The notes beneath the pieces are model-generated. The model was not told the DNA's origin. It was given only the letters and a program-made list of their open reading frames with translations, and did not search any database. A stretch of DNA of 33,122 bases from a virus: the IMG/VR virus record IMGVR_UViG_3300022752_000236, positions 1-33,122 of that record. The stretch is one strand, 5' to 3'. Each line of letters opens with the position of its first letter. The first letter of the stretch is position 1. Shown here in pieces: positions 7,923-32,993 of this stretch. Both the position numbers and the translations under genes were made by a program.

Positions 7923-8269
7923 AATACTCCGCCCTTGATCCAACTGTAAACTTAAAAACCAGATACGAACTTATTTCGGATTACGATTATCTCGACAAGC
8001 TTTCTGACAAAGAAAAAGCTTGGTTAAATAAGTTTACTAAAGAATACGTAAACGCTGACCTAGACACAAAGAATCGCTCTAAAAACTTACATAGAAGCGA
8101 GCGACTAAAAAAGGACTGTTACGACAGGAACAATTCCAGAAATAGATGTGTCTGGACAAAGTGTAAAGCGTCTGGAAAGTTCAATAGCATTGAAGACATA
8201 TCAAACAAAGTAACAGACAACGACAACTACGAAGATTTTTTAATAGAAAAGCTGGATAAGAAGAAGTAA
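7892..8269 (+). CDS. Hypothetical charged protein, 125 aa
   Basis: Unrecognised with certainty. It is a hydrophilic, mainly helical protein. Notable segments are LNLKTRYELI-like residues 20-28, LSDKEKAWLNKFTKEYVNA (37-55) and LKKDCYDRNNSRNR (72-85), the last of which looks like a conserved signature because it is dense in unusual residues. There is no membrane segment or obvious catalytic motif. Two cysteines (86, 91) do not make a clear zinc site. It overlaps the previous gene by 31 nt and is the last gene of the rightward block; its stop touches the stop of the leftward holin gene. It could be a small packaging or virion-associated factor, but the sequence does not show this. Confidence 0.6.
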   Translation: MENKTKRAKVKYSALDPTVNLKTRYELISDYDYLDKLSDKEKAWLNKFTKEYVNADLDTKNRSKNLHRSERLKKDCYDRNNSRNRCVWTKCKASGKFNSIEDISNKVTDNDNYEDFLIEKLDKKK

Positions 8270-8650
8270 TTACTCGTCGTTTTTAGAGCCAAGCTTCTTA
8301 ATAATCTGCTTAAAAATATCACCGTCAACAATGGCGTTTGAGTTCTCCATAAAGGACTTGAACTCCACCATTCCAATCATCCCACCAACAACGTTAACAA
8401 CCGGCAGGGCGTCACCGAGAAGGTAGCGCTGAAGAAGAAAACCGGTCACAACGGCAGTTTGATATACAACCATTTTGCTAACTGTGCGACCAAGCGCTGC
8501 GCTTGTGATTGGCTCTTTCCTCTTGTATGCAGCCCAAACGCCAGTAATTAGGTCTGAAACGATAAGAATACCAACCGTAATCATCACCGGCTTTATGGGA
8601 GCAAGTGCTGCCATTGCCGAAATCATTAAGTTTGAAAGATACTGCTTCAT
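8270..8650 (-). CDS. Holin
   Basis: A 126-residue protein with three hydrophobic helices: about 20-40 (ending in SDLITGVWAAYKRKEP), 58-76, and 82-97, followed by a charged tail. The SDxxTGxxxAxxxKE pattern followed by a variable loop and two more helices is that of the TcdE/phi-LC3-type holin families in phages. It would make inner-membrane lesions that end the infection cycle. It starts with TAATG on the stop of the upstream virion gene with GGAGGA directly before it, so it is translated from the late virion message. No endolysin is seen in the window. Confidence 0.8.
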   Translation of the reverse strand: MKQYLSNLMISAMAALAPIKPVMITVGILIVSDLITGVWAAYKRKEPITSAALGRTVSKMVVYQTAVVTGFLLQRYLLGDALPVVNVVGGMIGMVEFKSFMENSNAIVDGDIFKQIIKKLGSKNDE

Positions 8651-10557
8651 TATTCCTCCAAGAAAGGAACCAAGTCTTTTCGAAGAGATTCAGTTTGAGC
8701 TAATGTAAAAATAACCCCGCTCATTGCAAAAGAGTTGTTCGTTGCGGCGGCTTCTGCTAAGTGATTTCCGAGGTTTCTCAGTCGAGGTGAATCAGAGGCG
8801 GCCAGTTTTTGGCCTAAACTTAGAATCTTTTCTTTCGGCATCGCAACAAGTGTCCGAGTCAGGTCAACCGGTGTTTTAATAACAGAGGGAGTTGCTTTAA
8901 CTAGGGACTGAACCCCTTTCTCGGCTTCACCGACAAGACCAGCAACTCTGAATAACGCACCAGAGGGAGAAGCAATGTTTGCAAATTTAGATTTAACTTG
9001 TTCCTGTTGCTCTATGCCGTGAATTCCTCGCGAAATAGCAGAAACATCGGCTTGTCTTTTAATGTCAGAAAGTATCTTATCGGGCTCTAACCCAAACCGC
9101 TTAAGCGACTCGCCATGTGTTTGTTTTAATTCGTTAAGACCACGCTCAAGCTGTTGAAACGCAGCGACTTTTTCATCCGAAGAGGTAGCTCCAGTTTTAA
9201 GTTTCTCAACCATGGATTTAAAGTCTTTGAAAACGTCAGCAAAAGACTTGTCACTAAAAGAAGGAATTCCAGTTTTTATTAACTTAGCTTCGCCCGTGAC
9301 CGGATTGATTATCTGAACTGTCTCAGGAAGGCCCTTTCCGCCCGCAGCTCCGGTTATTTTTCTAGCAACGTTTTCATATAGTTCGTTGCTTTTTTTAAAA
9401 TCAGGAATAGTGTCTAACTTAGTCTTGAGCGCACTAAGCAGCTCACTAACACTTTCGCTTTCTTTAAACCCAATCTTCCCTTTTTCGGCGGCGTCAGCTA
9501 AAGCATTTCTAATTTCTCTTCTTAAGGTATTTACTTCAGACGGACTTATGCCTCCCTCAATTAAACGACCGGTGGCGTGTTCTGTTTTTTTTAAAAGATC
9601 AGTTAGTTTTGAAACAATAGCTGATGTTCCTGACCCAAAGATACCGCTTTCTTGAAGCGCATCAATTCCTTTTTTGATTACAGGAGCACTGGCATCATCT
9701 GCCGCAATTTTAACGCCCTGCTTTCCAGCGGCAATCAACGAATCGTCAATTGCCTGACCAATTCCCCAAAGGGCACCGTGAATCTTTTCAGCAAGACCTT
9801 TTGAAAACTCAGAAGATTGAGTTCGAAACTCATCTGAAATAAGGTTAGTTCCTTTTTTTGCTAACTCTCTAGCCAGCGCTGTTTGTCTACCAAGATCTGT
9901 TGACCCTAACTTTTCAGCACCCCACTTTAGAGCACCTTTTAATCCAGATCCAACCGCGCTTAATCCAGTTCCTAAAACTGCACCGCCCGCGCCCGCAATT
10001 GCTGCCTTTTTAAATTCTTCTTCGTTTAATTCTTTTGCTTCGCCAAGGTGTCCAACTGCGGCGCTGATTGCGCTAGGTATTGCTGCTCTAGCGACTGTAC
10101 CTAAAAGAGTAGGAGCAGCAGTTGCCGCTGCGGTAGCTCCGCCAGTAAACAAAGCGGGAGCGATTGCTCCACCTACTTCAGCCACAGTCGAAAGGACGGG
10201 AGAGCGCTCTTTAGCACGAGCATATCGCTCTTCTTCAATATCTCTGTATTGTTTGTACAAGCGCTCAAGATCGTTTTCTTTTGTTAGATCTTTTGATGCG
10301 ATTATATCGCGATACGCTTTTAATTTTCCAAGCATTTCTTCGGACCAACCGGCAGTAAGGCCATGCGCGCCTGAAGAAAGAATATCTTCAACGGACTCAG
10401 CGGCGCTTGTTCCAAGATTAGAAAGCGGTGACTCTTCTTTACCCCGCAACTCAGCCTTTTCTTCTTCAGTAGGAAGACGAAATCCGTGATCAGACGGCGA
10501 TTGTTCGTACTTAGCTTTTTCTTCTTCAGTAGGAAGACGGAATCCATGATCAGACAT
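8650..10557 (-). CDS. Internal virion / DNA-ejection protein candidate, 635 aa
   Basis: A large protein with no enzyme motif. The N-terminus has two tandem copies of SDHGFRLPTEEEKA (residues 2-15 and 22-35). After a charged helical stretch come Ala/Gly-rich hydrophobic segments (about 120-215, for example GGAIAPALFTGGATAAATAA and AIAGAGGAVLGTG), then a long helical coil-rich part. Ala/Gly membrane-active segments plus long helices, and position behind tail-tube genes, are typical of ejection proteins of podoviruses (compare T7 gp14-16 by position and composition only; no homology seen). No lysozyme or transglycosylase motif is visible. The stop overlaps the holin start. Confidence 0.7.
   Translation of the reverse strand: MSDHGFRLPTEEEKAKYEQSPSDHGFRLPTEEEKAELRGKEESPLSNLGTSAAESVEDILSSGAHGLTAGWSEEMLGKLKAYRDIIASKDLTKENDLERLYKQYRDIEEERYARAKERSPVLSTVAEVGGAIAPALFTGGATAAATAAPTLLGTVARAAIPSAISAAVGHLGEAKELNEEEFKKAAIAGAGGAVLGTGLSAVGSGLKGALKWGAEKLGSTDLGRQTALARELAKKGTNLISDEFRTQSSEFSKGLAEKIHGALWGIGQAIDDSLIAAGKQGVKIAADDASAPVIKKGIDALQESGIFGSGTSAIVSKLTDLLKKTEHATGRLIEGGISPSEVNTLRREIRNALADAAEKGKIGFKESESVSELLSALKTKLDTIPDFKKSNELYENVARKITGAAGGKGLPETVQIINPVTGEAKLIKTGIPSFSDKSFADVFKDFKSMVEKLKTGATSSDEKVAAFQQLERGLNELKQTHGESLKRFGLEPDKILSDIKRQADVSAISRGIHGIEQQEQVKSKFANIASPSGALFRVAGLVGEAEKGVQSLVKATPSVIKTPVDLTRTLVAMPKEKILSLGQKLAASDSPRLRNLGNHLAEAAATNNSFAMSGVIFTLAQTESLRKDLVPFLEE
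10453..10555 (-). repeat. Direct repeat, 43 bp units at 60-bp period
   Basis: The two copies, 10453-10495 and 10513-10555, differ at 3 positions by eye. They encode the duplicated SDHGFRLPTEEEKA peptide at the N-terminus of the ejection protein; the 60-bp period keeps the frame. Two of the differences are synonymous, so selection for the peptide is suggested. Confidence 0.9.
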
Positions 10558-10558
10558 A

Positions 10559-12757
10559 TTATTTAATTTGTCCTGAGTCTTTTAAGAATTTTTCCATTTT
10601 TTCATAAGACATGCCAGCTTCTTTAGCGGCAGCCTCAATTCTGTCTCTTGAAACATTTACGGGAGCAGTTTCGTCTTCTTCGTCAAAATTTAAATTTAAA
10701 CTGGTTATTTTTTTAAATTCTTTTTTAACGTCTTTTCCCGTCATCCCAGATTGCGTTTTTAGGTCTTCGTAAAGAGGTTTTAAATCAATAGTATATTCTT
10801 GTCTAAGCTGATCGCGTTGAATTTTAAGAACCTCAAGCATTTCTTGCCTTTGTTCTGCGGAAAACATGTCCCCCTTAAAAAACCTAGCCATTTTAGCTTT
10901 CATTCTTGACGATAAACTTCCCAAAGAAAGACCCAAACGAGCCTCGGCCTCTCTAATAACAGAATCGTCTTGTTGGATAGTTTTCATAAAACCAAAAAAT
11001 CCGGCCAAATCCTTTGCCCCACTGGGATCACCCTTAGAGTACTTATCAAAAAGATCTATACTATTTTCAGCTTTAATTAATCGACTTCGCACTTTACCAA
11101 GATCTCCCGTTGTAGCATAACGGCGGGCACCAGCTATCCAAGATCCAAGTTTTTCTTCTTTTGCGTCTTCTTTCTCGGACTTTCGTCGCGCATCCGCTTC
11201 TCTTTTGCTAGCAAGAAGATTAAAATGCTGATAGTTTTTTTCAATAAAAGCAGCTGTAACTGTTTTGGGAACATTAATGCCTAAATCCTTAAGCAAGGCT
11301 CTAGCCGACTCCGATTCGGGACTACTTGGATCGTTGCGTCGGATTTCTTCTTGAATGTCTTTAAGTTCCTTAACTTTTTTAACTCTTCCTTCGGCAGCTT
11401 GAGCTTGTTGTTTCCACGGAGAAACGTCGCCAACCTCAACACCTGCAATTGCAGCACCAAGTCTTTGTGCAGCCTCCCCCAACCCCGCTCCAAGTCGCCC
11501 TTGGTTCTCACTTTCGCGAGCGCGCATTAGTTGCTCGTTAAACATATTGGTTAAAGAAAGCTGTTCAGCAAGCTTTTCTCCAACAATTGGCGTAAGTATT
11601 TGTTTTTTAGCAAGCCGATCAACCTGCTCTTTATCAGGCTCTCCAGCTGAAATGGTTCTTGCTTCTGGAGCCAGTGCATTTTTTTCTTGATTTGGTGGAA
11701 GACGACTAACGTCTTCGGCGATTAGATTAGCACTGTCTTCTTTGGAGCTAAAAAGATTTCCTTTAGGAACGTCAACCTTTGAATAAAGACGTGATAAAAA
11801 ATCCTTATCCATTTCAGGGATAGGAGAGCCCTCTGGGGTTGGATAAAACGCCTCTCTTGAACTTAAAATATCATCAACTAAGTCTTGTCTTGTTGGCATT
11901 CTGCCAAATGCGTGTATTTTATCAATGTCAAAGGGACCCTTTTCAAGAGGATCAAAGGGTAGTGTACCGGCTCCTCCGGCTGCGTTTTTTAAAGAAGAAG
12001 CAATGATTTTACCTAATGGAGTTCTGGATAAAGAAGCGATACTTCGACTTGCTGCATCAATCTTGTCTTTTGAAATAAAACGATTCAAAATAGATGGAGC
12101 ACTTTCTTCAACTGCCGCTGCTGTTGAAGTTGGTGAAATTTTAGGAGGTTGACCCGGAGCAGAGGGGGGTGCGTCGCCGTAAACAGTCTCTCCAAACGTT
12201 TTAGACGGAGGAAGACGAGCCTCATTTTCAACAACTTCTGCCGCTTCCTTTACAGGAGACACAGGAGGAGCAGCTTCTTCTGCTTTTTGTAAAGCATTTG
12301 CGGCCACTTCTTCTGTCGCAGCGGTATTTACGCTTGGAACTTCAGAAGCGGCTTTAACTGGAACTTCAGGAGTTGTTTTAATCGGAACTTCGGGTTCGAG
12401 TGACGTTAGTTTTTTTGTTGGACCTTCAGACCATTCGTCAACGTCTGCGCTTAGACTTTTAGCATAGTCAGACTTTTTAGGTGCGGGCGGGGTTGGTTTT
12501 TTAGCAGCAGCCTTGGGAGAAGCCGGCTTTTCCACTGATTTTTTTGGAGCTGGTTTTTTTTCTGAAGCAGCAGCTTTTGAGGGAGGTGCTTTTTTTTCTT
12601 CAACGGAAGGCTTCTCGGCAGGAGCCTTTTTTTGAGCAGATTTTTTAGAAGCAACTTTTTTAGTCGCACCAATTCCAGCAGCAAGACCCCCCATCATTTC
12701 TTCTGAGTTGGACTCGTCGTTTTCGCCAAGCATGTTAAACAAATTAAAAGGTTCCAT
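10559..12757 (-). CDS. Internal virion protein candidate with histone H1-like Lys/Ala/Pro-rich region, 732 aa
   Basis: No family recognised. Residues 32-96 are almost only K, A, P, S and E, with motifs such as KKSAQKK and AAAKKPTPPAPKK, similar in composition to histone H1 tails. A Pro/Val/Glu-rich linker (115-215, with repeats EVPIK, EVPVK, SEVPS) follows. From about 260 the protein is helical and charged, with no catalytic motif. The size, composition and place in the run of four large helical proteins argue for an internal or ejected virion protein. A basic tail could bind packaged DNA (inference). It ends 1 nt before the next gene starts. Confidence 0.65.
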   Translation of the reverse strand: MEPFNLFNMLGENDESNSEEMMGGLAAGIGATKKVASKKSAQKKAPAEKPSVEEKKAPPSKAAASEKKPAPKKSVEKPASPKAAAKKPTPPAPKKSDYAKSLSADVDEWSEGPTKKLTSLEPEVPIKTTPEVPVKAASEVPSVNTAATEEVAANALQKAEEAAPPVSPVKEAAEVVENEARLPPSKTFGETVYGDAPPSAPGQPPKISPTSTAAAVEESAPSILNRFISKDKIDAASRSIASLSRTPLGKIIASSLKNAAGGAGTLPFDPLEKGPFDIDKIHAFGRMPTRQDLVDDILSSREAFYPTPEGSPIPEMDKDFLSRLYSKVDVPKGNLFSSKEDSANLIAEDVSRLPPNQEKNALAPEARTISAGEPDKEQVDRLAKKQILTPIVGEKLAEQLSLTNMFNEQLMRARESENQGRLGAGLGEAAQRLGAAIAGVEVGDVSPWKQQAQAAEGRVKKVKELKDIQEEIRRNDPSSPESESARALLKDLGINVPKTVTAAFIEKNYQHFNLLASKREADARRKSEKEDAKEEKLGSWIAGARRYATTGDLGKVRSRLIKAENSIDLFDKYSKGDPSGAKDLAGFFGFMKTIQQDDSVIREAEARLGLSLGSLSSRMKAKMARFFKGDMFSAEQRQEMLEVLKIQRDQLRQEYTIDLKPLYEDLKTQSGMTGKDVKKEFKKITSLNLNFDEEDETAPVNVSRDRIEAAAKEAGMSYEKMEKFLKDSGQIK

Positions 12758-15902: not shown

Positions 15903-18900
15903 TTATCTATAAGCCCTAGTAGATTGCCCAACTTCACCGGTCAACGTGATGCCATAAATAGCAAACTGCTCACGGGCGGTTTGATGGGCAAATCCGACAT
16001 TAATATATCGACACCTTTGACACTGACGTGGAACATATGTTCTAAACGGAGCCGAATTAGACGCACCCCCAAAGAATCCACTGCCAAACGATTGATGACC
16101 AAAAATACCGTTCCCGTCTCCGCTAAACTCAACCGAAATAAACTCAGGTAGTAGATCCGTTGAAAAGCTCATTTCAGCAGCCGTAAACGCTTTGTTTGCA
16201 AACATTACGGTTGCCTCTCTTAAGTGCTTCAAACCAAGAGGATCGCCCATTGTTAAAGGAGAATAAACAAATGAACAAGGGATGGCTTTATACACACTAA
16301 TCGGTCCAATCACGTAATCAAGAGCCAAATTTAATGTTATTGTTTTTGAAGAACTATTAATCGATTCAATAATAGATTCTTGAATAGTATTGTTATCAAT
16401 TGGACGATAATTACTATAAGAAACAATTGGATCGGTGTTTAGTCTTGAAACAATCAAATTGTAACAAACCTTAATATCATAAAAATTTTCGTCTATGGTT
16501 GAAAAGGCGCCACCGGTTCCAGCAACCAGAAGATCAACTGGAATTGTGAACGTTGTGGAGCCAGTAACCGTCACTTCAAAATTACCATTTATATCACCAG
16601 CGGTGCTGCCCGAAATGGTGACGCGCCTTCCGGTTTGCAATCCATGATCAACCGCCGTTGTTATCACAACAGGATTTGATACCGCAGCCGTTGTTATTGA
16701 TTCACTCAAAGAACCAATAACATCGCTGTATCCAAAAGTAAGTTCGCTATCTAGTTTTGTGGCAAGAGACACCAGTTTAGACCGAAGATTATCTCCCGCT
16801 TGTGCAGCAAGTGTCGAATAGTAATCTGCACTAGGAACACCCGGATCAAGGTCAAGTTTTTCAAGTAATGAATTAAACTCAAAAACAGTAAGAGTTTGAT
16901 CTTGAACAACAACGTCGCCAACGCTCAAAGTAGACACGGTGGGCAAAGAGATTGTTTTATTTGAAAAAGAACCGCTGACAATTGAAAGTGATAATTCTCG
17001 GTCTGCGTAATCGTAACGTGTAAATTCCTTGCGTTCTTTTTCTAAATAATTCACGTCTCCGGCGCCAAGGTAAAGCTTGTCATCAGAAGGATTCACAATT
17101 CCACAAGTCGCGGTTTTATCGACAGTTGTCCAAGAATTAGTTAAATTACTATAACGAAATCCGATTGTTCCAACAGTATCATTTGTTTCATTGGTTGTAT
17201 AAACCGTATAAGAATTATCTGATTCGTATCCAATTCCCCAAGTAGCCGAGCTAAAGTTTAAAAACTGACTAGACGCTTTTTTTAGAATTTCAGTGTCGAT
17301 TGGACGTGAAATAACGTTGACGCCCGCTTCTGTTATAGTACAGACACCTTGTGTTGTCCAACCATAAAGCTGGTTATTTGCAACAGAAAGGGAATCTGGC
17401 GCAAAAAGAATGCAACTGCTGTCAAATAGTGCAACGGTAAACGGAGCTGTTTCCCCAGAAAGACGGTACAGGCCATCTTCTTTAAAAACAAATAACGAAT
17501 CACGAAGGGGAAAAATTCGAAGAATGGCTTTATCTGTGGCACCAATATCAATGTAATTTGCAATTGGAACAGACTCAGGCTGTTGATATTTAGAATAATA
17601 AATACGATGAGGCTGCTCTTCATTTGAAGAAGATTCAGCGGCAGTTGTTAACTCAAAACAACCTTTAGTTGACGGACTTGAAATTCCAACCGGGATACTA
17701 AAAGTAGTTGCGGACAGCCACGTTATCTCGTGTACTCCGTCTGTTATTGGAGTTCCGACAGACGGAGGAACCGAAGGCGTTGCGTCCGTATTGGATATAA
17801 TCGCCTTATTGCCGTTAAAAAGGTTATGGTTAGCTGATGTTGTAACAAGAGACGAGGAAGCATCAATACTTGTAATAGAACTAATTGAAACTCCCGAAGG
17901 CGAAATATCCGGATTAAACGACTCCCCAATAATAGAGTCGCTTCCAACAACATAAAATTCATTTGAATTTAAAGTTCGCCCTTCGATTAAAAAAGTTCCC
18001 GGAGTTGAGTTTGTTCCGGAAATATAAAAAGCGTTTACAATATCATTATCATTTTTGTTTATAACACGGATTAGGCTTTTTGCAGTTTCTTCAATTGCTA
18101 TCCCAACCGATGCGTTTGATGAGAGAAGAACTTGTCTATTTGAAACATTTTCTCCGCGACCGTTTTGTGCTGTTGTAATTGAAAACCCAAGGGGGGGAAT
18201 TGACGGAAAAGTTGAGTCCGTTGTCTCACCTGATTCAAGCGTTTTTATTAAAACACTAGATCCCGATGTTGATAGTCTATATACCCCTATGGTTGCCGAT
18301 CCATCTGTTGTAAAGTCAACCACAGTTCCACCAAGGGTCAAAGACAATTGAAAAGTGTTTAATCCGGCGTTTACAATATAATAACTATCGTTATTTAATT
18401 CCCTTGGCAATTCTCCCGTTGACGCAAGTTGAATAATGTCACCATTTGATAAGCCGTGAGATGGCGAAGTAAACGTATTGGTTAATGCCGAAGCAGACGC
18501 AGTTACTATTAAGTTAAAAACGTTTGCAATGAATGAGTTTAAAACGTTTGAAATTGCATTTTTTGTTTTGTTTGCAACAACAGTCGCTGAGTCTATTGTA
18601 TTAACTGAAACCGCTATTCCGATTTTTTCAGAAAGAGCAGGAACTGTTAATTTTGGATCGATAGATAAGCCCACTTTATACCAAACATAATACAATAATT
18701 CATCGTTTGCTGAATTAATTGTAAAATAACTAGCAGTGCTTGCACTGGAAACTAAGTTCGACGCTAGTCCACACCCCAGCTCCGTTACTTCAATTTTTCC
18801 AGTAACAAACTGATATGTATTAGTTGTTGTTCCGTCACTAATTGTGAGTTTATACGGGTCAGAAAGATTGAAGTTATTAATCATATTAACAACCCCAATA

Positions 18901-21314
18901 AGCGTCAAAGTTTTACGCTGACGAGTGCTTGTATTTGAAAAAAATGTATAGCCTTTAAAACGATTAATATCCAAAGCAAACGGTGGAACGTCGTTTGCCT
19001 GTAACCCACCCTCTCCGGAGCGTTCGTTTGTGTAAAGATAAGCACCAGTTCCGGCAATTGATTCAGGCGTATTATCAATAAAACTAGCAACTCCTGAACT
19101 TAACTCTAAACTGGTCGGAAATTTTTCTTCAATTTGATAATATTCTTGAATAATCGCAATATCACTAATTGAAGACACACCCGTTACGGTGGCGATAGCC
19201 GTTCTGTATACCTGATAGAAGTAGGGATTATTATCAACCGAATACTGTCTAACAACTTCTGGAATCGTTGTTTTTAAAGTAACAGAAGCGTTCGATGTTA
19301 CGCCAAGCGTTTCCAAATAATAGGTAAAAACTGAACTTGAAATAATATTACTTCCGCGAGCTGAAACAAACTCTTGCAAAGATGAAATAATATTTGAAAG
19401 ATATTCTTGTAAAGACAAAAGCTGATCGTTGGTTGCGGGAATATTTTGCTCAACTGGCTGTTCTATTGAACGAAACAAGTTGCCTTCAAGCTTAGCAGTT
19501 GTTGTTCCATCGACAACCACGTTCCAAGACGCTGAAGAACCCGCTTGAGTGACAAGCTTCGCCACCGTCCCAGATCCTGTCAAAGTATTTGCTGAACCAT
19601 TAGAAACAGTTGAAACGCGGAACGTATTTGTCGCTAATCCGGCAGAAAGAACATAATACTGCGTGCCAGTAATAACACGGTTCATTGTTCCGGTTCCGGC
19701 GGTGAAAGTGATTGCCGTACCGCCAGCGGTTGTTGCAAGTTGAAACGTATTAGTTGCAACATTTATAACGTAATACGTTTTATTTTGATCAACTCCGGTT
19801 GTTCCGCCTCCAACTGTTGGAAATGTTACTGTATTTCCATTCTGAAGTCCATGCGCCACAACGGGGGACAAAGAAACAGTGTTTCCAGCGTTAAAGGTAA
19901 TTGATTCATTTGTTGGGGTTGTAACGTTAAAAGAAACCGTATCTCCAGCTACATAGCCGTGATTGGCTGAAGTAATATCAGTACTTAATGGACTTGAAGT
20001 CGAAAATGACTTTTTCAAATCAATACTGAACGTATCTTTTGAAAGATATGAAATATTATACGTTCCATTTATTGAGGGAACTGAATTAGATCCTGATATA
20101 GTTATCGTTTGTGTATTTTTTAATCCGTGATCTCCGCACGTAATAACACAAACACCGGATCCTTGAGCGGGAACCGTCGAGATGTTAGTGATCGTTCCGC
20201 TAACGCCAACTGGATTACTTGCTGTATAATTTTTTGCAGTAAATGTAACAGAGCCAGCAGCAACGCCCGTTAGTATTTGATCGGTATTAATACCATCAAC
20301 TGAAACGCCGTTTGACGTAAACCCTAAAATAGAGCTTACTGAATCAACCGGAATGTTTATTTTGTCGCCGCTAATAAAGTAATTAGTTGCTGTTCCAGCT
20401 GAAAAATTAACCGTAACGACCCCAGAAGAGACTGTAGCTCCGCTGATGTTAAGCTGAGAATACGCTGCCCCTGTTCCACTATCGTTTGCAAACAGAAGAT
20501 CTTCATCAAGCTTTTTAGCAAGTGAAATTAAGTTATTTCGAAGCTCAACCGAAGTTGCACTAATCGGAAGCGCCAATGACGAATAATAATTGGTGTCATT
20601 TAAAAGCGAACTTCCGGAGTTTGTTACGTTGTCTAATTGAAAAAGAAAATTTGAAAAATCACGAAGAGTAAGATCAAGAAGAGGATTCAAAACTGTAACG
20701 GCATCACTAGGGGCACCAAGCACTAGATTTCCGTTTGAGTCCTTTGTTCCCCAGACTATTTTATAAGCAACACCGCTGTCCGAAGTTAAAAAACTTGAAA
20801 CGTCACCAAGAGAAACGTTTAAAGTCGCTTCCGCGTCAAGCGCTTTTACTCCGCCGGCTTGTGTAATATTTGAAGCACTAAACGTGTCTGAGGATTTCGC
20901 TGAGATTTTTCGAACGCCCTCAGAAGATGTAAAATAAAGATTGCTATTAGCTTCGATTGATTTGATTCTAAGACCAGATTGTGCTTCAGAAATGGACGCG
21001 ACCCACTCATTCCCATTAACAATTTCGTTAAAATCAAAAAACGAAGTAACACCCGCATTATTTAAACCGTTTTCATATTGAAGGCGATTTGAAAAATGGC
21101 GAATTAATTTGTTTTTGTATGTGAGAAGTTGCTTACAGCGGTCACTCACGCTACCCATTGCCGTGCCATAAAGAGCATATCCACGACGAGACTCAATAAC
21201 GTTATCACGACGGATAATAACGTTTGATGCCTCAACAAGACTCCCGGGCTGAGCTTCTAGTTGATTGGGAGAAAAGTTAAGACCGAGTGCTTTGAGTAAC
21301 GGAAGCGAAGGCAT
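15903..21314 (-). CDS. Very large tail tubular B / tail nozzle-like protein, 1803 aa
   Basis: The N-terminus (NFSPNQLEAQPGSLVEASNV, then DNVIESRRG and RCKQLLTYKNKLIRHF) is the signature of podovirus tail tube/nozzle proteins that carry a beta-propeller; T7 gp12 has a related role in 794 residues. Here the protein is more than twice as long. Inserted sequence is strand-rich and holds six HG-type modules near H396, H452, H488, H953, H1163 and H1557 (for example AHGLQNGNTVTF). A second duplication pairs residues 216-273 with 1476-1525 (NYYSSLA...LISLAKKLDEDL against DYYSTLA...LVSLATKLDSEL). Residues 1235-1420 look propeller-like (YYSKYQQPESVPIANYIDIG, then LFVFKEDGLYRLSG). The C-terminus (1690-1803) is a compact end. 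AAGGG precedes the ATG. Confidence 0.8.
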   Translation of the reverse strand: MPSLPLLKALGLNFSPNQLEAQPGSLVEASNVIIRRDNVIESRRGYALYGTAMGSVSDRCKQLLTYKNKLIRHFSNRLQYENGLNNAGVTSFFDFNEIVNGNEWVASISEAQSGLRIKSIEANSNLYFTSSEGVRKISAKSSDTFSASNITQAGGVKALDAEATLNVSLGDVSSFLTSDSGVAYKIVWGTKDSNGNLVLGAPSDAVTVLNPLLDLTLRDFSNFLFQLDNVTNSGSSLLNDTNYYSSLALPISATSVELRNNLISLAKKLDEDLLFANDSGTGAAYSQLNISGATVSSGVVTVNFSAGTATNYFISGDKINIPVDSVSSILGFTSNGVSVDGINTDQILTGVAAGSVTFTAKNYTASNPVGVSGTITNISTVPAQGSGVCVITCGDHGLKNTQTITISGSNSVPSINGTYNISYLSKDTFSIDLKKSFSTSSPLSTDITSANHGYVAGDTVSFNVTTPTNESITFNAGNTVSLSPVVAHGLQNGNTVTFPTVGGGTTGVDQNKTYYVINVATNTFQLATTAGGTAITFTAGTGTMNRVITGTQYYVLSAGLATNTFRVSTVSNGSANTLTGSGTVAKLVTQAGSSASWNVVVDGTTTAKLEGNLFRSIEQPVEQNIPATNDQLLSLQEYLSNIISSLQEFVSARGSNIISSSVFTYYLETLGVTSNASVTLKTTIPEVVRQYSVDNNPYFYQVYRTAIATVTGVSSISDIAIIQEYYQIEEKFPTSLELSSGVASFIDNTPESIAGTGAYLYTNERSGEGGLQANDVPPFALDINRFKGYTFFSNTSTRQRKTLTLIGVVNMINNFNLSDPYKLTISDGTTTNTYQFVTGKIEVTELGCGLASNLVSSASTASYFTINSANDELLYYVWYKVGLSIDPKLTVPALSEKIGIAVSVNTIDSATVVANKTKNAISNVLNSFIANVFNLIVTASASALTNTFTSPSHGLSNGDIIQLASTGELPRELNNDSYYIVNAGLNTFQLSLTLGGTVVDFTTDGSATIGVYRLSTSGSSVLIKTLESGETTDSTFPSIPPLGFSITTAQNGRGENVSNRQVLLSSNASVGIAIEETAKSLIRVINKNDNDIVNAFYISGTNSTPGTFLIEGRTLNSNEFYVVGSDSIIGESFNPDISPSGVSISSITSIDASSSLVTTSANHNLFNGNKAIISNTDATPSVPPSVGTPITDGVHEITWLSATTFSIPVGISSPSTKGCFELTTAAESSSNEEQPHRIYYSKYQQPESVPIANYIDIGATDKAILRIFPLRDSLFVFKEDGLYRLSGETAPFTVALFDSSCILFAPDSLSVANNQLYGWTTQGVCTITEAGVNVISRPIDTEILKKASSQFLNFSSATWGIGYESDNSYTVYTTNETNDTVGTIGFRYSNLTNSWTTVDKTATCGIVNPSDDKLYLGAGDVNYLEKERKEFTRYDYADRELSLSIVSGSFSNKTISLPTVSTLSVGDVVVQDQTLTVFEFNSLLEKLDLDPGVPSADYYSTLAAQAGDNLRSKLVSLATKLDSELTFGYSDVIGSLSESITTAAVSNPVVITTAVDHGLQTGRRVTISGSTAGDINGNFEVTVTGSTTFTIPVDLLVAGTGGAFSTIDENFYDIKVCYNLIVSRLNTDPIVSYSNYRPIDNNTIQESIIESINSSSKTITLNLALDYVIGPISVYKAIPCSFVYSPLTMGDPLGLKHLREATVMFANKAFTAAEMSFSTDLLPEFISVEFSGDGNGIFGHQSFGSGFFGGASNSAPFRTYVPRQCQRCRYINVGFAHQTAREQFAIYGITLTGEVGQSTRAYR
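16740..20669 (-). repeat. Internal duplicated segments in the nozzle-like gene
   Basis: Codons for residues 216-273 (about 20496-20669) and 1476-1525 (about 16740-16889) encode the same type of helical unit: FxxxLxxLD, a spacer, [ND]YYS[ST]LA, then a helix with LxSLAxKLD[ES][DE]L. Each is followed by strand sequence and, further on, HG modules (CGDHGL at 20129 and VDHGL at 16646). The copies are diverged, so the duplication is old or the units are independent copies of a common module. Confidence 0.7.
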
Positions 21315-21622: not shown

Positions 21623-22900
21623 CTACATGCGTTTACGCACACCCATTTTAAGGTAGCGAAGAATAGAATGTCTAGCGGTAATTTTTTGAGGAGCACCCTC
21701 AACACGGTCATCAAGCAAGCTTCCTTGCCGATATTCCATTTCTTTAATTTTATCGTTTGCCATTGCAAGCCCAGCTTGATCGCCAAGCGAAGCTAGAATG
21801 CGAGCTGCTGTTTTTTCAGCAAGCATATTATGAAGATCTGGCGGAATCTGCGGAATAATAGACTCTCCAGCCAAGCAAACGTAATCGCCTGTTAAAATGT
21901 TAGCAATCTGCGGAACGAATCCGTATCCGTTCGAAAGTTCAATTAAAAGATCATTACGATTTACTTTGAGGCAGTATACACCCACAGAAGGATTAGTAAC
22001 CGCTTTAACTCTAACATCAAATACGTAAGTCTTATGACCCGGCTTAGTTTGAAGGAAATCAATTTTAGAACCCACTGAATAAAGCGAGTTCACTTCTGTA
22101 CCAAAATTGAATCCAACTTGAGTAGAAATAGACAGCGCTGTTTCATTTAATGCGACAAATGATGTTGTAATATCATCAAATGTAAACGTAACGGTTGCGC
22201 CACTTGCAGAAGCGCTTACTCCATCAATTGCGGCTAATGTGACCGCTGAAACAATAGCGGCGGCGGTTGCTGCGGCGTTTACGCCGGCAACAATGGGAAT
22301 GTCAGTTGCAATCGGCTGAACGCTCTGTGTTCCGGTTGTAACGGTGATTACATCCCCGGCAACAATGGCTCCGTTGTTTGTGATTGTAATATCTTGAGAA
22401 AACGACTGAATGACCCTTGCGCGGTCGTTTGCAACAAGCTGATTTGGACGAAGAAAAATAAAGAAATTAAGGTTCCCAGTAGGGCCGCCAATGACGCTAG
22501 GGGTTAGCACAACGTCATTGTTTTCTAAATAAAACTTGTGAATAGCTTGATTGGCACCAATATTGCGCTGAAAAAACGCTTTATCATCGGCACCAATACG
22601 GGTCATTTCAAAGAAATTCCCGCTTGAGTCTGACCACATTAGGTCGCGAAGACGCATTCCAATCGCACGATCCGGAATAGGATAGCGACTGATGTTACTA
22701 ACTAACGGAGTCTGTACGCGGTAAACGAAGTATTCTTCGTGATATTGCAGAACCGAAGGAACCTGAGAGATAAACATTTCTTCGTTTGCAAAACGGAGAA
22801 TGTCTTCTTCAGAGAACGTATTTTGAGATACAGGGAACGCAATTTTACGCTTTACAGCCTCAATAATGTCATTGGAGGTCATCCAAGGATTTGAGGCCAT
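21623..22900 (-). CDS. Tail tubular A-like adaptor (connector) protein with inserted beta domain, 425 aa
   Basis: The opening (PWMTSNDIIEAVKRKIAFPV, then FSEEDILRFANEEM and VLQYHEEYFVY) matches podovirus head-tail adaptor/tail tubular A-type proteins, which sit between portal and nozzle; the position next to the nozzle-like gene agrees. T7 gp11 is 196 residues; this one is twice that. Residues about 170-268 form a strand- and Ala-rich insert (ITITNNGAIVAGDVITVTTG, GVNAAATAAAIVSAVTLAA) that looks like a fibre-type or Ig-like decoration domain. The adaptor sequence resumes afterwards, and the helical C-terminus (PPDLHNMLAEKTAARILASL) is again typical. Confidence 0.75.
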   Translation of the reverse strand: MASNPWMTSNDIIEAVKRKIAFPVSQNTFSEEDILRFANEEMFISQVPSVLQYHEEYFVYRVQTPLVSNISRYPIPDRAIGMRLRDLMWSDSSGNFFEMTRIGADDKAFFQRNIGANQAIHKFYLENNDVVLTPSVIGGPTGNLNFFIFLRPNQLVANDRARVIQSFSQDITITNNGAIVAGDVITVTTGTQSVQPIATDIPIVAGVNAAATAAAIVSAVTLAAIDGVSASASGATVTFTFDDITTSFVALNETALSISTQVGFNFGTEVNSLYSVGSKIDFLQTKPGHKTYVFDVRVKAVTNPSVGVYCLKVNRNDLLIELSNGYGFVPQIANILTGDYVCLAGESIIPQIPPDLHNMLAEKTAARILASLGDQAGLAMANDKIKEMEYRQGSLLDDRVEGAPQKITARHSILRYLKMGVRKRM

Positions 22901-27718: not shown

Positions 27719-29890
27719 CTACCTTGAACGAATCCAAACGTTTGATGATGCGTTAGCAGATAACGCACCGCCCGCATAATTCAAAGACGTGCTTGGGCGA
27801 ATGTCAATATAATCACCCGCGTTTAGTTGAACCAAAGTGCTACAAGCAAGATTAAAACCCGGCGTAGCTGGGCCATAATTTATTAATTTATACGCAGATC
27901 CGTTTTTATACAGCGTGATATATACGTTTGTTCCTGCTGTCTGGTTGCCCACAAATCCCACGGTGTACCAATCAGACCGGGGGGCTGTAAATCTCCAAGA
28001 TACCCCCGTTGTTACGGTACCGTGACTATCAAACTCTTTTGAATCAAAATTAAATGGCGCGGTGGTACTTGCGGTTCCGTTTGCGCTCGCCCAATATGAC
28101 GCAGCAATTTGCTCACTCGCGGCAATGGCGGACGGGCCGGAAAGTCGAAACAATGAAAGACTATTAACAATAGATGAAACAAAAACAGGGCTTGTGCAGT
28201 CGGTTCGAAGCCGAATGGTCAGAAGATCCCCTGCCTTCAAGTTCGGGATTAGGACACTTCCTGCAATGTATTGGTTGTTTGCGGTCGGTTTACTCGGAGT
28301 TTCTGCAACCTGAGTACCGTTCACAACGTAACAAATTTCCCAAAATGTCCCTCCGGTTCCCTGAGTTTCAAACTTAGCAGAACACGAATAGTCACCGGCA
28401 ACCGGAATGGTGATAACACCATTTGAATAGATGCCATGAGAATCTTTCGTTGGAGTTGTGTTCCAGTTAACAGTAGTACAACTTGAAAACGCCAAAGCTA
28501 TTGTTCCGGTAGGCGTAATTCCTGAGGTTGGATTGATCGAAAAATCAACCACCCTCGTATCCGTGTCATTCGACATTTGGACTGAGGATGACCAGCCGAG
28601 GATTGGTGTCCTTAGAAATAAACGAAACCCTACCGAAGAATCAGAAAAGGCGAAGTTAGTCCCCCATCCTTCGTCAACCTCGGAACCTCCCGCTCCGGCA
28701 CTAGTTTGAGAGGATGTAACAATTGCATAAAACTGATTTGAACTATAAGCGAATAATTCAAGATTGGCATTATATCCGGTGGCAGAATTCCACTGCAGCT
28801 GCCCGTATCCAATAGAACTTACCGCCCCAGCTCTACCAGACTGAATCAATCCGCCACTAGTGGTCACTTTTCCGGTATCAAACGAAAATCCAGATGGAAG
28901 ACTAAAAAGATATGTTCCTGTTCCTGCCGTACCAGCTGTTGACTGAGCATATTCATAAACAAGCTCTGCAGAGTCCCCCACTCGCCTCATTAAAACCCTG
29001 TCTACAGACCTTGTTCCACCCTTTGTTGGAGCAGTGGTTGTTGCTCCAATTGTTATCGCTCCCATGTTTTGAGTGTCCGTCACCGGAGCGCCATATTGTA
29101 CAACTTGTGGACCAAGCACAAAGTCATCAAGATATACAGTAATAGCACCGGTTGATGCATTAGGGAAATAAACGGCTAGACGAACCTGTGTCGCATCCGA
29201 AGGAACTTGAAATGTTCCAGCCGCTTTTGCGGTAACGGCAGCGACAGAAGATGCTGTATTAACACTCCATACGCCAGCGGGTTGAATCCACGTGCCAGCA
29301 AGTGCTCCATCAACCACATAGATCGCAACGCCGATTGAGTTGCTGGATGTACCAGAAAAGTTACCGTTAGACGCACCGGAAGTGACGCGGTAGTAAAAGC
29401 TAAAAGTTTGTACAGACGCTTGCGCTTCAAGGTCAAGAGTAAGGGCATCAGTAACGAGCATGTCACCGGCAGTTGTTGCTGCGCTTGATGCTAGAGAAAG
29501 AGATGCAACACCAGAAAGTTGACCACTTGTGACAATCGTGCGTGAAAGAGTACCGGCAGCGGCAGTCCATGAGCCAGATGCTTGATTTGGAAGTTTTGTT
29601 GTGGCGTCAAGAGTGGAGCGAGCGAGATTCCAGCCGGAAGTGCTGCTGTTCTCAAAGTTACCGTTTGTGATGTAATTCTTTACCCCCGAAGCTGAAGCAC
29701 TTACTTCAACCCAGTTTCCTGCACCCAGATCGGTTGCAAACGAAGCTGTAGAGGTATGAGCAATCAAACAACGATAAAGCTTATCGCTATTGATGACAAG
29801 TTGATTGACAACGTAAGAAGTACTTGATGCCCAAATTGTTGCCAATTCTTGCATCGATGTAAAGTGATTTAGTGTTCTGCTGTATGCCAT
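27719..29890 (-). CDS. Tail fibre protein with carbohydrate-binding-like domains, 723 aa
   Basis: Residues 19-63 (W, then SYVVNQLVINSDKLYRCLIA and a final GNWVEV) resemble the small CBM5/12-like carbohydrate-binding fold. Residues 72-262, starting KNYITNGNFENSSTSGWNLA, look like a beta-sandwich carbohydrate-binding module. Then follow about 120 residues of trimer-forming type and at least two C1q/TNF-like sandwich modules toward the end (for example TGTIALAFSS, AGDYSCSAKFET and DWYTVGFVGN). Such a protein would bind host surface glycans. The first residues (YSRTLNHFTSMQELATIWAS) may be the attachment to the tail. AAGGAT precedes the ATG. Confidence 0.7.
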   Translation of the reverse strand: MAYSRTLNHFTSMQELATIWASSTSYVVNQLVINSDKLYRCLIAHTSTASFATDLGAGNWVEVSASASGVKNYITNGNFENSSTSGWNLARSTLDATTKLPNQASGSWTAAAGTLSRTIVTSGQLSGVASLSLASSAATTAGDMLVTDALTLDLEAQASVQTFSFYYRVTSGASNGNFSGTSSNSIGVAIYVVDGALAGTWIQPAGVWSVNTASSVAAVTAKAAGTFQVPSDATQVRLAVYFPNASTGAITVYLDDFVLGPQVVQYGAPVTDTQNMGAITIGATTTAPTKGGTRSVDRVLMRRVGDSAELVYEYAQSTAGTAGTGTYLFSLPSGFSFDTGKVTTSGGLIQSGRAGAVSSIGYGQLQWNSATGYNANLELFAYSSNQFYAIVTSSQTSAGAGGSEVDEGWGTNFAFSDSSVGFRLFLRTPILGWSSSVQMSNDTDTRVVDFSINPTSGITPTGTIALAFSSCTTVNWNTTPTKDSHGIYSNGVITIPVAGDYSCSAKFETQGTGGTFWEICYVVNGTQVAETPSKPTANNQYIAGSVLIPNLKAGDLLTIRLRTDCTSPVFVSSIVNSLSLFRLSGPSAIAASEQIAASYWASANGTASTTAPFNFDSKEFDSHGTVTTGVSWRFTAPRSDWYTVGFVGNQTAGTNVYITLYKNGSAYKLINYGPATPGFNLACSTLVQLNAGDYIDIRPSTSLNYAGGALSANASSNVWIRSR

Positions 29891-30104: not shown

Positions 30105-30824
30105 TTAGAATTTGATGATGTAGTTTACGGAGATGTTGGAAGGGCGGGTTTCATTGCCCCCATTGGAACCAGTCGTTCCTGAGTAGTTTGGAGATCCCCA
30201 ATTAGAGCCCGACGCTAAATTTCCCATGCTTGGTCCCGCCGTGGTACTGTGTCCATGACTCATAAATGCATGATCTTGATAAGCACCGACGTTTGCCGCT
30301 GAATTTCCACCCACAGTGTTTGCAGCACGAGAAGCAGCATCCGGATCTTCATATTGCACAATCACAGCGCTATTAGCTCCGCTAATTGCAGCGCGAGTGC
30401 CAGCAATCGCGTTTGCTTTAGAAGTAGCAAAAGCGAGAGTATTTTCGTTTACAACAATTACCCAATAATCAGTTGATGCAGCAAGACCGGAAAGAGTTCC
30501 GCTTGAAAGACGCGCTTTAACGCCCGTGCGATTAAAACCGTGGGAAGTAAAGGTCGCTTGATTGCTTGATGCAGTTCCACTTCCCGTTACCGAAATGTTA
30601 CTACCTCTTCCGCGAAGAAACGTCCATCGATAATCGGGAAGATTAAAAGTGGTTGATCCATCGCCAGAGCCGTGGGATGTTCCAATTGCAGCAAATAGCG
30701 CGGCGTATGTTGTGCGATTCACCGCACTTCCGTCGCAAATAAGCCATCCTTCTGGTGCGCTTGCACCTGCATACGGAAGAACAGCGGCTGGTGGAATAAT
30801 TTCTGATATTGCTAAAAATCCCAT
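30105..30824 (-). CDS. Tail collar domain protein, 239 aa
   Basis: The first 72 residues form the phage tail collar domain: GASAPEGWLICDGSAVNR, SxxF followed by LPDYRWTFLRG. The end (ETRPSNISVNYIIKF) is the usual last strand of such proteins. Between these lies an insert (about 90-155) with the same HG-type module as in the nozzle-like protein: TFTSHGFNRTGVKARLSSGT, then STDYWVIVVNENTLAFATS. The protein is part of short tail fibre or collar structures that contact the host. Start with AAGG about 9 nt before. Confidence 0.8.
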   Translation of the reverse strand: MGFLAISEIIPPAAVLPYAGASAPEGWLICDGSAVNRTTYAALFAAIGTSHGSGDGSTTFNLPDYRWTFLRGRGSNISVTGSGTASSNQATFTSHGFNRTGVKARLSSGTLSGLAASTDYWVIVVNENTLAFATSKANAIAGTRAAISGANSAVIVQYEDPDAASRAANTVGGNSAANVGAYQDHAFMSHGHSTTAGPSMGNLASGSNWGSPNYSGTTGSNGGNETRPSNISVNYIIKF

Positions 30825-32459: not shown

Positions 32460-32993
32460 CTAGCTAGTTTGTGATAGAGCTTGTGCCGCAAACGATAGTT
32501 TGCCTGTATAGTTAGTGCCCGTTAAAGCCTTTACTGTGTAATATACCTGTCCATCGTCATTTATTCTAAAATTAATTCCGGAAATTGTCAACCCATCGCC
32601 TGAACTTCCTTCCGGGGTGAGATTTCCAATAAAATCTCTTTGAATTTCCCATTTTTCATTAAAACCGGCGTTTGGATTATAAACAACGGTAAGAAGCCCT
32701 GTTTCAGTATGATTGCCAGTGGTGCTGTTTCGGTATACGCTATATCTGATATTCGCGGCTCTTACCGAATCTGTTGGAAACGCCAAAGAACGTGATGCGG
32801 TTTGAACCGTTTGTTCGTTGTCGTTGTTTAGAATGTCCATGACTTGTGGAGGAATGTCATTTGGACCAACGATTCCGTTAAGAGCATCCGCCGTATTTTG
32901 AGCAAACTCAATTAGAGCTGGTGCCCAATTTGGAGATTGAGCAGAAGAAGGGAAGTCAATTGGGGTGCTGTTTACTATAATGGTAATTGACAT
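32460..32993 (-). CDS. Tail protein, 177 aa
   Basis: Residues 14-65 (FPSSAQSPNWAPALIEFAQN, TADALNGIVGPNDIPP) are helical and typical of small tail base proteins of environmental podoviruses. Residues 60-177 form a beta domain (RAANIRYSVYRN, GLLTVVYNP, KWEIQRDFIGN, GLTISGINFRINDDGQVYYT, KLSFAAQALS). The same order of strands ends the 1075-aa spike protein, so both use one domain, perhaps for trimerisation or for docking. It is the first gene of the fibre sub-block, under upstream element copy C; AAGG stands before its ATG. Confidence 0.7.
   Translation of the reverse strand: MSITIIVNSTPIDFPSSAQSPNWAPALIEFAQNTADALNGIVGPNDIPPQVMDILNNDNEQTVQTASRSLAFPTDSVRAANIRYSVYRNSTTGNHTETGLLTVVYNPNAGFNEKWEIQRDFIGNLTPEGSSGDGLTISGINFRINDDGQVYYTVKALTGTNYTGKLSFAAQALSQTS

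Follow-up and report, generated by a model that had tools for sequence, protein, structure and literature searches.

The window analysed here, meaning the whole stretch of DNA, is a 33,122-base IMG/VR virus record and is probably a fragment of its virus genome. Its genes follow the order fibres, adaptor, nozzle and internal virion proteins. The nozzle protein gene P0001 (15903..21314, minus strand) is an open reading frame of 1803 aa that is assigned as a nozzle by fold. It lies near a gene for a presumed adaptor of 425 aa (21623..22900, minus strand) and upstream of the internal virion proteins, represented by a phrog_342 match at 8650-10557. The window adaptor has no Pfam match; in relatives, the family PF24175 (SU10_adaptor) is matched over the cut-off by the adaptor of L015 and just under it by that of L012. 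Comparison of the adaptor profile A9 with the SU10 adaptor, T7 gp11 and the PDB gave nothing significant. A fibre-like protein is encoded at 27719-29890, with a CBM_5_12 match (28.8 bits vs a cut-off of 26.2) at aa 20-49, close to its N-terminus.

AlphaFold2 models were obtained for a 964-aa relative (L016; pLDDT 88.7, pTM 0.84) and for aa 1130-1803 of the window protein (pLDDT 87.4). Both display the platform and seven-bladed propeller of solved nozzles. For the L016 model, Foldseek ranks 1-24 are phage nozzle or tail chains without exception (E 5.8e-27 to 4e-10), including T7 gp12, SU10 and the crAss001 muzzle. The best 30 rows of VIA-align are again nozzle and tail chains of short-tailed phages, with Z values of 31.7 for Pa223, 29.5 for the crAss001 muzzle, 28.8 for SU10 and 24.7 for T7 (rmsd 4.0 over 514 for the T7 nozzle). 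Nozzles are also the best structure matches of the window model. Judged by these models, the core is a podovirus nozzle, and the matches of L016 and of the C-terminal window model thus bear out the nozzle identity that had been proposed from the DNA.

The original prediction had taken T7 gp12 as the reference. This likeness holds by fold and by neighbourhood order, but not by sequence, where profile comparison makes SU10 gp17 (Kuravirus) the nearer nozzle. The SU10 gp17 profile matches the family with E values of 1.7e-4 and 1.8e-4, colinear over 156 columns; the value of 1.7e-4 comes from a single comparison with an hhalign probability of 49% and covers the propeller part only. The window family has no match to the T7 gp12 family (PF25675 / phrog_457), both profiles of which T7 gp12 itself matches, and hhalign against one T7 sequence or nine T7-like nozzles was not significant. 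Kinship with T7 gp12 at the sequence level was dropped, as Pfam, PHROGs, NCBIfam and hhalign gave no match. None of the nozzle families of Pfam, NCBIfam and PHROGs matches the window protein, and in sequence searches of the PDB neither the core profile A3 (14 sequences) nor P0001 returned anything meaningful. According to the SU10 report, sequence similarity is undetectable between the SU10 and T7 nozzles as well (PMC9509320).

The length of the protein, 1803 residues on the minus strand against 794 for T7 gp12, was confirmed for both proteins. The core common to the family comprises 826 columns (alignment of 43 relatives, counting columns with residues in 75% of rows or more), and four insertion regions contribute about 980 residues to the window nozzle. 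Insert 1 (aa 212-675; 19290..20681), which holds helical unit A and HG modules 1-3, is absent or nearly absent in short relatives. Insert 2 (aa 813-1048; 18171..18878) was delimited by the family alignment and contains HG module 4. Insert 3 (aa 1141-1223; 17646..17894) is HG module 5, modelled as a small domain made of beta strands only. Insert 4 (aa 1475-1643; 16386..16892), defined by alignment and model, consists of helical unit B with HG module 6 set into it. These inserts, like all features of the gene given below, are on the minus strand, and the insertion anatomy as a whole is well supported.

With a profile made from the family, exactly six HG modules are detected in the open reading frame, as many as the original prediction had counted. 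Modules 1 (aa 388-434; 20013..20153), 2 (aa 444-483; 19866..19985; the weakest of the six), 3 (aa 483-530; 19725..19868) and 4 (aa 945-994; 18333..18482) were located by profile. Module 5 has HN in place of HG (profile aa 1155-1211, within insert 3), and module 6 was located by model (aa 1535-1609; 16488..16712) and profile (aa 1549-1595). The modules themselves stand, but the literal tail of the proposed pattern, YYV..TFxL, occurs in only some of them. The HG profile was trained on the nozzle family itself, and independent support comes from Pfam PF16190 (E1_FCCH), which matches the window protein with an E value of 3.7e-11 (43.4 bits vs a cut-off of 29.5); single excised modules score 12-21 bits or do not match, below this cut-off. 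A family-wide scan found 71 HG modules in 32 of 1004 open reading frames and none in the same 1004 reversed or shuffled. H24 and F56 are nearly invariant across 61 modules. Pairwise identity among the six window modules is only 15-39%, which rules out recent duplication as their origin.

Two copies of a helical unit had also been noted, and both are present. Located at aa 243 (A) and aa 1498 (B), they align with a local score of 74, where 2000 shuffles reached 48 at most. A copy-B profile made from relatives also finds copy A, with an E value of 8e-4 (Z set to 1000). From these sequence comparisons, units A and B are homologous. In the window model, the first helices of unit B (aa 1477-1533; 16716..16886) are followed by module 6, which sits between the helix at 1529-1533 and the closing helix at 1611-1627 (16434..16484), so that a six-stranded barrel precedes the closing helix. 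At the same site L016 has four helices (710-721, 731-735, 743-757 and 772-788) and no barrel. Since these helices occur without a barrel in L016 and are split in the window protein, the helical unit is a bracket and the HG module its guest. Unit A seems to follow the same order, with N-terminal helices (aa 214-276; 20487..20675), recognised by sequence, and a presumed closing helix (aa 629-650; 19365..19430), placed by sequence and alignment with L001, on either side of modules 1-3. All inserts had been predicted to lie between the N-terminus and the propeller; this does not hold throughout, as module 6 and the second helical unit come after the propeller.

Relatives were collected by scans of viral contigs, which gave 2, 45 and 5 overlapping loci, and by tblastn of 50,697 phage records, which gave a single relative, a phage of Silvanigrella aquatica (CP017838) whose protein has one HG module. 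Kept were 43 unique proteins longer than 600 aa (708-1803 aa), after setting aside L003 (the window), L006 and L040 (on the same contigs as L001 and L002), seven exact duplicates and L048 (474 aa, open end). L002 is represented by its downstream open reading frame of 768 aa alone. Its nozzle gene (7977-11590) consists of two open reading frames of 435 and 768 aa with a junction at 9284, which may reflect a frameshift or an assembly error; the last 300 aa or so of the first look foreign.

The window protein is the longest of the family, followed by L015 with 1799 aa. Seven of the 43 relatives (L027, L029-L032, L037 and L045; 823-868 aa) have no insertion of more than 6 aa at the listed sites, and 15 of the 42 scanned lack an HG module (L014, a near-copy of L005, was left out of the scan). 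The modules are thus insertions; an integral place in the core of all relatives, which would have spoken against the original prediction, was not what the family shows. Of the alignments A6 (36 rows) and A7 (34 rows), both subsets of the 43 proteins, the former has Pfam E1_FCCH called on 10 members. In a quickly built tree of 41 proteins, which leaves out L046 and L014 and has support below 80 on 9 of 38 inner branches, the presence of HG modules changes at least seven times at site 282, four times at 1140, three times at 1474 and twice each at 96 and 812. Identity to eight close relatives is 51-54% in the core and 33-41% in the inserts, where the alignment is less sure, suggesting that the inserts diverge faster than the core. 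A search of whole records found modules in 11 of 11, with 26 of the 29 modules in nozzle open reading frames and 3 elsewhere. In the 1481-aa nozzle of L053 (6986-11431), the first profile detects no HG module, but phrog_6002 repeats occur in five stretches, so the insertion sites take other domain types too; with an extended profile, the L053 record gives one weak HG match (1.1e-5).

The modules match two known domains. In its predicted structure, module 6 adopts the barrel fold of the FCCH domain (PF16190) of ubiquitin E1, aligning with that of UBA6 at Z 12.9 and an rmsd of 1.3 Å over 75 residues. The module thus resembles E1 FCCH in both fold and sequence; E1, in contrast, is a eukaryotic enzyme, and nothing points to ubiquitin chemistry in the phage nozzle. 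FCCH is also an inserted domain within ubiquitin E1. The E1 FCCH barrel is not known to bind glycans, and hence the function cannot be read from the FCCH fold by itself. Two proteins of uncultured Caudovirales named 'Ubiquitin-activating enzyme E1, FCCH domain containing protein' (A0A6J5LGE5 and A0A6J5L3G3) match the window model by their predicted structures (E 7e-15 and 1.1e-13). Similar folds are therefore already in the databases under an FCCH-type automatic name. Among 14 control genomes, PF16190 was over its cut-off in one, that of the bacterium Caulobacter vibrioides. In the open-licence library searched we found no paper linking FCCH to phage tails, nothing on nozzles with inserted carbohydrate-binding domains and none on the cyanophage A4 nozzle.

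The second is the beta-barrel of the K1F and phi92 endosialidases (PF12195), which matches the HG module; these propeller enzymes are trimeric tailspikes with one barrel and not nozzles. Compared with all PDB sequences, the profile of 61 modules finds Uba1 (1.4e-6), the phi92 endosialidase (9.8e-6) and the K1F endosialidase (4.8e-5), followed by weak matches. Across 119 frames of the K1F region, K1F gp17 is the sole match to the module profile (5.9e-8), with one significant stretch at aa 432-488. It is on these two profile searches that the relationship rests and not on the Pfam cut-off of 35, which module 6 (18.1 bits) and the L012 adaptor (19.9 bits) do not reach with PF12195. According to a preprint, K1F has three sites for polysialic acid, of which the barrel is one, and the substitutions S460R and S468D discriminate host strains (PMC12632334). 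S460 and S468 both lie in the loop downstream of the HGLxxGDxV strand. As counted roughly by pattern in 44 of the 61 modules, this loop measures between 2 and 40 residues. Inside this loop, L026 and L036 have a W/Y stretch resembling CBM5/12, by pattern only. Pfam finds CBM_5_12 in the L026 nozzle outside the loop (44.2 bits vs a cut-off of 26.2); the L036 match stays below this cut-off (21.3 bits), and the window nozzle has no accepted CBM match in Pfam. The homology with the endosialidase barrel and the CBM_5_12 of L026 strengthen the case that the modules may bind glycans, as had been suggested.

We read the window protein as the nozzle of a short-tailed phage and propose, with about even confidence, that its mobile barrels bind host surface polysaccharide. 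As a nozzle it would be a subunit of the distal tail hexamer, and six copies per virion would amount to 36 barrels. Inserts 1-3 would lie in the stretch that forms the distal-tip nozzle domains of SU10, and insert 4 near the adaptor-facing platform. The barrels, which may be exposed in a ring around the nozzle, would present their variable loops outward and grip the polysaccharide, individually weakly and together through their number, before the phage commits to genome release or while it does so. The module set would be altered by gain and loss at a few tolerant loops.

The inserts could instead be structural, with a part in building, extending or locking the tip, in holding fibres and in rearrangements at genome release but none in host binding, as the Ig-like domains of SU10 would suggest. 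SU10 gp17 shares with the window protein the fold, the profile match and domains inserted in the propeller region. According to the SU10 report, four extra domains between blades 2 and 3 of the propeller touch their neighbours and a fibre and swing from an L shape into a line, as part of a 277 Å lengthening (PMC9509320). From aa 1226 (model residue 97) onward, the window protein aligns with SU10 from residue 611 onward, which places inserts 1-3, three of the four, upstream in the stretch of the SU10 nozzle domains; this placement follows from alignment ranges and not from a residue map. The four SU10 inserts differ, however, in being Ig-like, and no HG module was found in SU10 gp17 or in the nine T7-like nozzles. 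The crAss001 muzzle gp44 offers a second parallel in its nozzle fold, its enlargement by Ig-like insertions and a length that varies by insertion (PMC10172136). Its inserts are Ig-like and 'crass' domains. The HG profile has 63 PDB matches at E up to 1, and the 60 listed include none of the muzzle chains. A structural role sits less well with the wide variation in module number and site among relatives that share the same core, with the seven relatives without insertions, and with the faster divergence of the inserts relative to the core, which is unlike what a conserved moving part would show. We regard it as possible rather than probable; it is not far behind the binding role, and both may hold.

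SU10 also has a loop with three Trp on which its trimeric short fibre docks (PMC9509320). Insert 4 was rejected as the counterpart of this loop, because SU10 residue 830 corresponds to residue 642 of L016, in which insert 4 comes clearly later (708-803). Three aromatic-Gly repeats (FGHQSFGSGFFGG; aa 1738-1750; 16065..16103) form part of the core and occur in 35 of the 43 relatives by a loose pattern. They read WGxxxWGxxxWGG in short relatives and FG..FG..FFGG in the window, and have low pLDDT in both models. By analogy they could be a fibre dock, which is only a guess, as the positions of the SU10 loop and the repeats do not correspond.

A further explanation is that the modules are nearly neutral mobile passengers in tolerant surface loops of virion proteins. 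They are gained and lost many times and also occur in the L012 and L015 adaptors and in other open reading frames of the virion region. At the corresponding place the window adaptor has an insertion of about 100 aa with another module type. The L016 phage, whose nozzle lacks modules, carries one elsewhere, in a protein of 222 aa. Module-free proteins of the window (177 aa, 32460-32993) and of L001 (167 aa) align with this protein, and orthology is likely though not certain, the identity to the former being only 28%. Even so, about 980 extra residues in a multi-copy virion protein are a large cost, and the H24/F56 signature is kept across the 61 modules despite their divergence, which makes mere passengers unlikely. 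A tail collar protein (PF07484; window 30105-30824) has an HG-like stretch at aa 90-135 that also matches the phrog_38233 tail fibre, but was rejected as a further module carrier for its weak match (E 7.5e-4). Finally, some other propeller-bearing virion protein such as a tailspike, which the absence of Pfam, NCBIfam and PHROGs nozzle family matches and the insignificant T7 profile comparison would allow, is hardly credible given the nozzle fold matches, the adaptor-nozzle-internal virion protein gene order and the SU10 profile match.

Beyond the binding nozzle proposed here, we tentatively suggest that a single HG/FCCH/endosialidase barrel family moves between phage nozzles, adaptors, fibres and tailspikes, where it serves as an exchangeable polysaccharide grip. 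It would be plugged into helical brackets and make the nozzle a host-range organ, with the E1 FCCH domain of the same descent. The link between module, endosialidase and FCCH names and gives a fold to a motif that has been automatically labelled as part of a ubiquitin enzyme. In the usual view the nozzle is a channel, and recognition is left to fibres and spikes. Here, a nozzle family that extends from about 820 to 1803 aa via plug-in barrels, kin to a domain that binds capsule, makes the part of a channel protein in host recognition directly testable. If the barrels bind, recognition of bacteria may be shared by the tail tip itself.
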